From: a virus
IMG/VR virus record: IMGVR_UViG_3300036804_000011
Coordinates: 1 to 29,208 of that record
Direction: 5' to 3' (one strand)
Length of the DNA stretch: 29,208 nt
Shown here piece by piece: positions 956-3,721 of this stretch (position 1 is the first letter of the stretch; each line of letters opens with the position of its first letter). Below the pieces are notes generated by a model that ran no database searches, had not been told where the DNA came from, and saw only the letters and a program-made list of their open reading frames with translations. Made by a program: the position numbers and the translations under genes.

Positions 956-3721
956 TTATTTCCATGACATGATCGTCATTCCTTGGCCGCCGCTGCCGTT
1001 TGCGACCTGCGACCCGTTGGTGCCTGATGAGCCGCCGCCGCCGGCGCCATACCAGCCGCCGTAGCCGCCGGAACCTTGGGCGTAGCCGGATTTGACTGGG
1101 CCACCGCCGCCGCCCGAACCGGCCAATTCGCTTGCGTTTTCGCTGACACCGGTAGCGCCGTTGGCGCTACCGCCGGATGTGCCGCCGTTGCCGCCGGCGT
1201 CGCCGTGGGCGTTCGCGCCGCCCGGGCCGCCAGCGCCGTAGGTGAAGCCGGTACCCGCGCAACCACCACCACCACCGCCGCCCGGCGCTGCGAGACTAGG
1301 ACTGGTCACGCTGCCGCCGCTGCCGCCGACGCCGCCGCTGACCGAGCCGCCGCTACCACCGGCCGCGCCGTTGTAAAGCGTTGGACTGGTCGTGCTTGAC
1401 GACGCGGTGCCGCCGCTGCCTGCCGCCCCGGCGACCGTTGACGATCCGGCGCCACCAGCGCCGCCGCCGCCAGCCGACACGGTTACGCCGTTAGATGATG
1501 TGAAGGTGCTTGCGGTTCCGTTGCTGCCACTTGCGCCCACGGCACCGCCCAAGCCGAGAGCAACCGAATAGGTGCTGGTGCCGATGGTGGATGAGATGAG
1601 CTGCCATCCGGTGTCGACGTAAGCGCCGCCGCCGCCGCCGCCGCCGCCGCCGCGGTTACTGGTGGCGTTGGTGTAGCCCTCGCCGCCGCTACCGCCGCCG
1701 CCGATGGCTTGGAACCGCCATTGCGTTGCGCCGGCCGGGATGGTCGAGTTGGTGTGCGTGACGTTGACTTCGCTGACCGGCGTGAACGGCACCGCGCCGG
1801 TAAACGACAGCGACGGCGTGACCGACAGCGCAGCGGCGCCGACCTGTCGATCGACGCCGGCCATCCCGATTACCGGTGTGACTGGCAGTGCGACTGTGCC
1901 GACCTGCTTATCGACGCCCGACATGCTGATCGACGGGGTAACCGGCAGTGCAGCCGCGCCAACCTGCTTGTCGACGCCGCCCATGCTGATCGCTGGTGTG
2001 ACAGGCAGTGCGACCGCGGCCGGCGAGATTCCCGCGCCGCTCACGTCGATTGCCGGCGTGACAGACAGTGCAGCCGCGCCGACCTGCTCGTCGACGCCGC
2101 CCATGCCGAATGCTGGTGTGATCGACAAGCCGACCGCGCCGGATTCCTCCGGAGTCGCAGACATCCCGATCGACGGGCTGATAGACAGTGCCGCGGCGCC
2201 GACCTGCTCGTCGGCGCCCGACATCGCGAATGCTGGTGGTACGGATAGTTGGAAGGTCGACAGCCCGGCCGGGACGAAAGTTCCGGCCATCCCGAGCGAC
2301 GGCGAGATGCCCAGGTCGAACGCTGCCACCGATTCGCCGGCACCAGCCATCCCGATCGACGGGGTGACTGGCAGCGTGAACGCGCCGCTCGAGATGGCAC
2401 TGTTTTCAGTCATGCCCAGCGCCGGTGCGACGTCAAGCTGGAATCCGCCGGGCTCGAGCACCGCTGCCCCAAACGCGAGTACCGGTGTGATGTCCAAGCC
2501 GAACGCGCCAGCCTGCCTATCGACGCCGGTCATGCTCAGCGATACAGGTGCGGTGATGCTGAATGCGCCTATCTCGACTGGTCGGCCGGCCATCGCGATC
2601 CCCGGGGCGATTGCCAACGCGAACGCGGCCACCGAGATTCCGGCGCCGGCCATGTCCAGAGCCGGCGTGATGTCCAGACCGAACGCGCCGACCTGCCGCT
2701 CGGTGCCGGCCATCGTCAAGCCGACTGCCACCGAGAGGCTGACTGAGGCCGGGACAGCGTCACCCATCCCAAACTGCACAGCCAGTGACAACTTGAATCC
2801 GACGTATAGCTCGGCCCACCAGCCGGTTACCGGATTCGGCGTGACCGGGACCGGGAACGGTTCGACAGACCAGCCCGCGTTGGCACCATAGTTCGGCATC
2901 GGAATGACGACTGGCCGGGTGTAGGACTGCTCGATCTGTAGGCGTAGCTCCTGGTCGGTTTGCGGGAATGTGGCGCCCGTTCCGAGCATGGGAAGCGGGT
3001 AACTAGGTGAGTAGAGCCATGTGATATTGCCTTCTTGCAGAGCGATGTTCGTGTCGTCGTCGACGGTGACACTCATGTAGCCGGTGCCGGGGATCGCGAG
3101 GCCGGTGTGTACCAGCATGAGGCCGGCGAGCACGTTCACCATTGTGTTCGAGTACGGGCCAGAACCCAGGATGGTAGCGATGGACTGCATTGTGTTCGAG
3201 TCGGTGGAAGCTGCTTCCAAGCCGACTAGCGCGTTGACAATCGGTGCGGCCGTGGGGAAGTCAGCAATGGGATCGTACTGCCTGGCAAAATCGACACATT
3301 GGTAGCTAGTGTTAGCGGGCTTGCCGCCGGTGTAGCCGACGGCGTTGAAAACGCTTCTGTTGTAAGCGAATCCACCATACTTGCGGTCAGCATTCCCGAT
3401 CAGCAGGAACTTGAGCCGTGACGGATCTATCGGCGTCGATGCACCTTGCGTACTCAGCCAGAGGTCGGCGATCTGGCCGCCTTCCGAGTACGCGAACACT
3501 TTAATCTGTTCTGTCTCAGGCAAACCCATCATGTACGTGTTGAGCAGCGTGTTACCAGCTTGAATGTTCGCCAAGCTGGACGTGTTCCAGTTGTACGGCA
3601 GCGTGTAGAGCGTGTCGCCGGGCTCCATCACCGTGCCGTTCAATAGCTGATACTGGTTGGTGCCGTTGAGAAATGGTGTGACGTCGGTCCCGTATGGGTT
3701 GAGCAGGATGACGGTACTCAC
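956..3721 (-). CDS. Tail fibre with PE-PPE type serine hydrolase domain, repeats and glycine-rich tip, 921 aa
   Basis: GTG start at 3721 overlaps the previous stop (GTGA). Three parts are visible. Residues 1 to about 290 look like the PE-PPE domain (Pfam PF08237), an alpha/beta hydrolase fold related to cutinases and found in mycobacterial PE and PPE proteins. Evidence is FAYSEGG around candidate nucleophile S79, LLIGNADRKYGGF (residues 106-118) matching the family 'GDPNRPNGG' region, YDPIADFP (149-156) with candidate acids D150 or D154, and H205 as candidate histidine. The nucleophile elbow is AxSxG rather than GxSxG, tolerated in some lipases. Residues 308 to 642 are 17 repeats of 20 residues. 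Residues 650 to 921 are a glycine-rich tip, as in many phage fibres. It probably sits at the tail tip and may hydrolyse ester lipids of the mycobacterial envelope; activity is inferred. Confidence 0.8.
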   Translation of the reverse strand: MSTVILLNPYGTDVTPFLNGTNQYQLLNGTVMEPGDTLYTLPYNWNTSSLANIQAGNTLLNTYMMGLPETEQIKVFAYSEGGQIADLWLSTQGASTPIDPSRLKFLLIGNADRKYGGFAYNRSVFNAVGYTGGKPANTSYQCVDFARQYDPIADFPTAAPIVNALVGLEAASTDSNTMQSIATILGSGPYSNTMVNVLAGLMLVHTGLAIPGTGYMSVTVDDDTNIALQEGNITWLYSPSYPLPMLGTGATFPQTDQELRLQIEQSYTRPVVIPMPNYGANAGWSVEPFPVPVTPNPVTGWWAELYVGFKLSLAVQFGMGDAVPASVSLSVAVGLTMAGTERQVGAFGLDITPALDMAGAGISVAAFALAIAPGIAMAGRPVEIGAFSITAPVSLSMTGVDRQAGAFGLDITPVLAFGAAVLEPGGFQLDVAPALGMTENSAISSGAFTLPVTPSIGMAGAGESVAAFDLGISPSLGMAGTFVPAGLSTFQLSVPPAFAMSGADEQVGAAALSISPSIGMSATPEESGAVGLSITPAFGMGGVDEQVGAAALSVTPAIDVSGAGISPAAVALPVTPAISMGGVDKQVGAAALPVTPSISMSGVDKQVGTVALPVTPVIGMAGVDRQVGAAALSVTPSLSFTGAVPFTPVSEVNVTHTNSTIPAGATQWRFQAIGGGGSGGEGYTNATSNRGGGGGGGGGAYVDTGWQLISSTIGTSTYSVALGLGGAVGASGSNGTASTFTSSNGVTVSAGGGGAGGAGSSTVAGAAGSGGTASSSTTSPTLYNGAAGGSGGSVSGGVGGSGGSVTSPSLAAPGGGGGGGCAGTGFTYGAGGPGGANAHGDAGGNGGTSGGSANGATGVSENASELAGSGGGGGPVKSGYAQGSGGYGGWYGAGGGGSSGTNGSQVANGSGGQGMTIMSWK
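1625..1651. repeat. Perfect GCC trinucleotide run (9 units)
   Basis: Nine uninterrupted GCC units on the plus strand encode nine consecutive glycines (residues 691-699) at the start of the glycine-rich tip of the fibre. Slippage here would change the glycine count without breaking the frame. Confidence 0.9.
1796..2800 (-). repeat. 17 tandem copies of a 60-bp (20-residue) coding repeat
   Basis: Within the fibre gene, residues 308 to 642 repeat every 20 residues. The consensus is roughly G-V-D-x-Q-V-G-A-A-A-L-x-V-T-P-x-I-x-M-x, and the 'TPxIxM' step recurs at an exact 20-residue spacing. Copies nearest the C-terminal end (about residues 540 to 640) are most alike, while the N-terminal copies are more diverged, suggesting recent expansion on one side. 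The regular hydrophobic alternation suggests a beta-solenoid or a stacked rod that spaces the hydrolase from the glycine-rich tip. Confidence 0.85.

Follow-up and report, generated by a model that had tools for sequence, protein, structure and literature searches.

The closest described systems are the PE-PPE esterases of mycobacteria (Rv1430/PE16, Rv1184c/Chp2-type). The PE-PPE domain of Rv1430 was demonstrated experimentally to be an esterase, the Ser199Ala mutant being dead, and the same domain is present in Rv1184c (PMC3562317); the triad of Rv1430 is Ser199, Asp276 and His302 (PMC3037379), and Rv1184c was identified as Chp2, an acyltransferase of polyacyltrehalose synthesis (PMC5101647). 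The phage fibre protein described below shares with these enzymes PF08237, the QYDxxxDFP and NxxxGxxxxH motifs and the positions of Ser, Asp and His; it differs in that a PE/PPE N-terminal domain and a signal peptide are absent, that ~29 extra residues are inserted between Asp and His, and that it is fused to a phage fibre.

Phages are already known to encode both stand-alone PE-PPE hydrolases and lysin B proteins that are PE-PPE-like. The former are found in about 35 mycobacteriophage records and are annotated as hydrolase, esterase or PE-PPE-like protein; Nibb gp97, Jolie2 gp59 ('PE-PPE like protein'), KayaCho gp88 and Phabba gp36 ('esterase') have the PE-PPE domain and the triad residues of the fibre protein, but are unfused, do not lie amid annotated tail genes, begin with a signal-peptide-like hydrophobic N-terminus and fall outside the tail clade. 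RefSeq copies of stand-alone hydrolases (L122:2225-3403, L123:2225-3136, L124:2222-3142 and L125:2126-3115) are named 'DNA binding protein', as is phrog_9390; this name looks like a misannotation. Many lysin B proteins match PF08237 (PMC7022511). D29 LysB (3HC7), a mycolylarabinogalactan esterase, is likewise a cutinase-like alpha/beta hydrolase, and its Ser elbow aligns with that of the fibre; lysin B is, however, a lysis protein without a shaft, and the PF08237 match was weak or sub-threshold in the two examples tested.

Two further groups are comparable. The minor tail proteins Mozy gp21 and Aminay gp26 (phrog_2106, Gly_rich_2) have the same 20-residue repeat shaft starting from GWWAE and, in Aminay, a glycine-rich tip, but lack the N-terminal hydrolase. 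The G7C-type tail-spike esterases/deacetylases of phages of Gram-negative bacteria (PMC6989608, PMC8471582) are tail-borne and act on surface esters at adsorption; their substrates are polysaccharides, and a functional analogy, not homology, is drawn here. Search of the open-access literature gave no description of a tail-borne PE-PPE or lipolytic tail protein for mycobacteriophages; the fusion of the domain, with a conserved predicted triad, to a tail fibre is the new part.

Fibre gene and its surroundings

The window is the whole stretch of DNA analysed (29,208 nucleotides; positions 1 to 29,208 of IMG/VR record IMGVR_UViG_3300036804_000011). The fibre protein is encoded by a 921-aa ORF on the minus strand (956-3721; GTG start at 3721, stop at 956), downstream of a tape-measure-sized gene and amid minor tail genes. 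The sequence-only reading had given the hydrolase part as 2852-3721; this interval and the coordinates of its motifs were correct, and the strand, which was not stated there, is minus. Features of the region (all minus strand):

205..738, minus: downstream minor tail protein (phrog_2005)
956..3721, minus: PE-PPE / shaft / glycine-rich minor tail (fibre) protein, 921 aa, GTG start (Pfam and PHROG matches)
1055..1753, minus: glycine-rich tip, residues 657-889 (PF21722, phrog_754)
1772..2824, minus: fibre shaft, residues 300-650, 20-residue repeats, starting at GWWAE (repeats, PHROG, minor tail alignments)
2867..3721, minus: N-terminal PE-PPE-type serine hydrolase domain, about residues 1-285, Pfam core 51-159 (PF08237, model, cutinase fold)
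3107..3109, minus: H205, predicted catalytic histidine, = His302 of Rv1430 (alignment, Rv1430 spacing)
3152..3250, minus: ~29-residue insertion between acid and histidine, about residues 158-190 (alignments)
3272..3274, minus: D150 of QYDPIADFP, predicted catalytic acid, = Asp276 of Rv1430 (alignment, Rv1430 spacing)
3485..3487, minus: S79, predicted nucleophile, elbow A77-Y-S-E-G81 (alignment and model)
3911..6388, minus: upstream minor tail protein (phrog_346/3493)
6372-6905, minus: 177-aa ORF amid minor tail genes
6779..8401, minus: minor tail protein, LtfC-like domain (phrog_3856; PF23926)
8415..10184, minus: minor tail protein, Sipho_Gp37 / phrog_110 family (Pfam and PHROG)
10181..11179, minus: minor tail protein (phrog_106)
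11170..17403, minus: putative tape measure protein, 2077 aa (length and position); a partly similar frame is present in a M. heraklionensis prophage

Fusion to a tail fibre, proposed in the sequence-only reading, was borne out by profile search: phrog_754 (E 1.6e-24) and phrog_2106 (E 1.8e-21), both 'minor tail protein', match parts of residues 299-921. The 20-residue repeats run from residue 300, PF21722 (Gly_rich_2) matches residues 657-889, and 319 phage records contain proteins matched by the part that follows the PE-PPE domain. The N-terminus of Mozy gp21, MSVAVGWWAESHVSFG, aligns with ...NPVTGWWAELYVGF of the window protein at residue 300; Aminay gp26 aligns over the shaft. Proteins of the Mozy gp21 type have their first residues precisely at the end of the PE-PPE domain, which gives the enzyme the look of a graft onto a pre-existing fibre. 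The order PE-PPE domain and shaft was also found in two IMG/VR contigs (L003, L004) and a M. heraklionensis prophage (L115). The N-terminal domain is constant among these fibres and the C-terminal tips vary (glycine-rich in the window, none in L003, an NHL beta-propeller in M. heraklionensis). An unfused 333-aa PE-PPE protein was observed in a tail cluster at L117:12223-13224 (minus strand); it ends near TGWW, the shaft-start motif of the fused versions.

Predicted active site and fold

Profile search of the window protein confirmed the PE-PPE domain proposed earlier: PF08237 matched residues 51-159 with E 1.8e-12 and 47.6 bits (cut-off 21); 50.5 bits were obtained in a six-frame search, 51.2 bits in L003 and 58-70 bits in the prophage homologues. 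The match is far beyond what chance would give, and every tail relative shows it. PE and PPE N-terminal domains (PF00934/PF00823) gave no Pfam match in the window protein at E 1, and PF00823 was absent from the window record; no match to the lysin B family phrog_102 was obtained for the window protein at E 0.1, and none in a PDB sequence search.

S79, GNADRKYGG (109-117), YDPIADFP (149-156) and H205 lie where the sequence-only reading put them. S79, D150 and H205 are invariant across a 50-row alignment (the window and 49 phage and host sequences); the host loci were gathered by the QYDxxxDFP motif, so that invariance of its columns is in part due to that choice, and the S79 and H205 columns are free of this bias. 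Of 225 columns that can be compared in the tail clade, 51 (23%) are invariant, and these include all three triad positions. In host PE-PPE proteins the D of 'QYDG' is 26 residues ahead of His, as is Asp276 before His302 in Rv1430; by this spacing S79, D150 and H205 correspond, as predicted counterparts, to Ser199, Asp276 and His302. The acid had been given as D150 or D154; on the Rv1430 Asp-His spacing D150 was kept and D154 was dropped.

The elbow is AYSEG in the window, GYSEG or GWSEG in six tail relatives and AYSQG in some host PE-PPE proteins. The doubt cast earlier on activity because of the AxSxG form is largely eased, though at the level of sequence only, by the G-form in the six relatives and by AxSxG in host members. 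The residue following the acid is P in the window and its two nearest relatives and G in host proteins. The ~29 extra residues between Asp and His are present in the tail clade and absent from host PE-PPE proteins; this insertion may form a lid.

Structure prediction, suggested in the sequence-only reading, gave a confident cutinase-type alpha/beta-hydrolase model with a Ser elbow (AlphaFold2 on the 50-sequence alignment; mean pLDDT 83.8, pTM 0.84); in the model strand 72-78 leads into S79 and helix 80-91 follows it, and D150 comes directly after strand 141-147. The lack of any significant PF08237 or alpha/beta-hydrolase match, which would have refuted the sequence-only reading, was not observed. 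Cutinase-family enzymes were top-ranked on comparison by Foldseek and VIA-align: M. tuberculosis Rv3802c, Z 12.8, 3.5 Å over 180 residues; Cryptococcus cutinase-like protein, Z 12.7; MSMEG_6394, Z 12.3; phage D29 lysin B, Z 11.4, 4.8 Å over 177 residues. The closest viral models were phage proteins named 'hydrolase', 'esterase' and 'PE-PPE domain-containing', and lysin B. A 'PE-PPE domain-containing protein' of Gordonia phage Avazak was found by the structure search and was not found by the sequence searches used.

Relatives, tree and selection

The same domain was found in the two IMG/VR contigs at 64-66% identity. Three of the 396 mycobacterial genomes searched gave a match at E 1e-15 or better: M. 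heraklionensis Davo contig_27, a 1085-aa homologue (40%); G036, homologues truncated at contig ends (about 53%); and G325, with the unfused 333-aa homologue in a tail cluster described above (45%, triad kept). The M. heraklionensis prophage contig has homologues of the terminase (70%), portal, capsid and other genes of the window, and on this ground the host family is most likely Mycobacteriaceae. No close relatives were obtained in an exact-peptide scan of 84,980 genomes, the patterns being too phage-specific; a scan with the host motif then succeeded. Plasmids gave no tblastn match. The collection scans detect close relatives only, so that the apparent rarity may understate prevalence. Minor tail proteins of cluster J, considered as distant carriers (E about 1, residues 151-231), were rejected, Thibault gp32 having no PF08237 match.

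Among 50,697 GenBank phage records the only match at E 1e-5 was StAugustine gp42 (L002:12001-13665; 28% identity), which likewise has an N-terminal PE-PPE domain, but with the catalytic Ser and His replaced and with a C-terminal half of another family (phrog_282/3329), common to hundreds of phages; Stinger gp33 consists solely of this half. The gp42 gene lies in a block between tail genes and lysins. The protein is a second, independent fusion and is probably inactive; its domain stands on a long tree branch, the placement of which is unsure.

The seven tail-clade domains (window, two IMG/VR contigs, three mycobacterial genomes) form one group (support 100/99) that leaves out the four stand-alone phage hydrolases and the majority of host proteins; of the host rows, L086, L017 and L106 lie closest to it, and the closest non-tail host proteins in the alignment are about 30% identical. 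The dN/dS values were 0.13 (L003/L004) and 0.09 (two G036 copies), by which the domain is under purifying selection; distant pairs were not used, most pairwise dS being near saturation.

Two neighbouring genes of relatives were recorded. L003:12448-13560 (plus strand), between tail genes and lysis cassette, encodes a true PPE-family protein (PF00823, 201.6 bits; PPE-SVP C-terminus); no tblastn match to it was obtained in the 50,697 GenBank phage records, and no PE partner was seen adjoining. L115:8464-9621 (plus strand), downstream of the fibre gene in the M. heraklionensis prophage, encodes a mycosin/kumamolisin-like serine protease, scoring 36.6 bits against TIGR03921, far under the cut-off of 278.75.

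Possible role at the mycomembrane

The protein is read here, with somewhat more confidence than doubt, as a siphovirus tail-fibre protein with an added N-terminal PE-PPE esterase that de-acylates or binds a mycomembrane glycolipid at adsorption. Sequence, alignment and model support the identity and fold of the domain, its conserved triad residues, its fusion to a tail protein, the single clade and purifying selection; location in the virion, catalysis, the substrate and action at entry are inferred. On this reading a tail-fibre (baseplate accessory) protein of a Mycobacteriaceae siphovirus would have gained a PE-PPE-type serine esterase domain at its N-terminus, and the repeat shaft and variable C-terminal tip would hold this domain at the cell surface. 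Ser79 would form an acyl-enzyme, followed by hydrolysis or transfer of the ester-linked acyl chain, as with PE-PPE esterases/acyltransferases of the host envelope; the domain would de-acylate (or bind) an acylated mycomembrane glycolipid, e.g., acyl-trehalose or another surface ester, and either action would make it easier to reach the receptor or to pass the membrane as the phage adsorbs. Fibres usually attach to the baseplate by the N-terminus; the hydrolase, being N-terminal, may therefore sit near the tail and not at the tip.

Action on outer-membrane lipids had been proposed in the sequence-only reading; for Mycobacteriaceae, 'outer-membrane' has to be taken to mean the mycomembrane, and that the domain would bind or cut envelope lipids is still the best reading. 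The intact predicted active-site residues suggest that the virus trims or grips waxy surface lipids on attachment. Acyl-trehalose lipids as substrate are a guess from the family context, Rv1184c being Chp2. Infection by mycobacteriophages BPs and Muddy requires TPPs, which are acylated trehalose lipids; BPs needs them already to adsorb, and a co-receptor role was proposed for them (PMC10465359). In minor tail proteins of mycobacteriophages, polyglycine-rich domains were suggested to touch lipid moieties (PMC13252515).

Recruitment of the PE-PPE fold for docking on lipids or on the baseplate, with catalysis incidental or lost, is considered unlikely, yet it is the most serious of the alternatives. 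In StAugustine gp42 the domain is retained but its Ser and His are gone, which makes a non-catalytic function possible in that protein at least; in fibres that otherwise vary, the domain is what stays constant, at the N-terminus, as is usual for anchors, and the window elbow is AxSxG. That elbow form is, however, found in host PE-PPE proteins too, the triad is intact in 7/7 tail-clade members though just 23% of columns are invariant, and it is retained in the unfused 333-aa version.

Still less probable is a late, lysin B-like esterase acting on mycolyl-arabinogalactan at exit, the tail fusion being incidental. The PF08237 matches of many lysin B proteins, a profile link with lysin B at and near the Ser elbow (E 2.3e-7) and D29 LysB as structural neighbour would agree with it, and the unfused relative L117 gave a weak phrog_102 match (1.4e-6). 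Against this, three relatives (L003, L115, L117) carry, close to their lysis genes, a lysin B-like gene of its own; two such genes scored 20.2 and 18.5 bits with PF08237 (below cut-off) versus 47-70 for the tail domain, phrog_102 fails to match the window protein, and both the fusion to a shaft and the position amid tail genes are in keeping with a virion part. Very improbable, finally, is a role in which the domain mimics a PE-PPE surface protein of mycobacteria or changes the lysogen's envelope (e.g., superinfection exclusion). Homologues do occur in prophages, a true PPE protein is encoded by a related phage as well, and stand-alone PE-PPE hydrolases of other phages have a signal-peptide-like N-terminus; the tail-fused protein, however, begins at the hydrolase, with neither a signal peptide nor a PE/PPE domain in front, and its gene is by position a late structural one. 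The mimicry of a host surface protein raised in the sequence-only reading found no specific support.

For the preferred reading, an esterase on the tail fibre, a narrower proposal is made tentatively and with more doubt than confidence: that this siphovirus lineage cuts an ester-linked surface lipid (receptor or barrier) at entry with a virion-mounted esterase, the enzyme coming from the family that builds or remodels mycomembrane acyl-glycolipids.

Recognition and crossing of the waxy mycomembrane by mycobacteriophages are poorly understood, and phages are in therapeutic use against mycobacteria. With its intact predicted PE-PPE triad, the fibre suggests an enzyme-based step of entry that is open to direct test, and for which ready comparisons are at hand in StAugustine gp42 (a natural dead site) and Mozy gp21 (a fibre without the domain). 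The narrower proposal, if true, would make the esterase a mycomembrane counterpart of the capsule- and O-antigen-deacetylating tail spikes.
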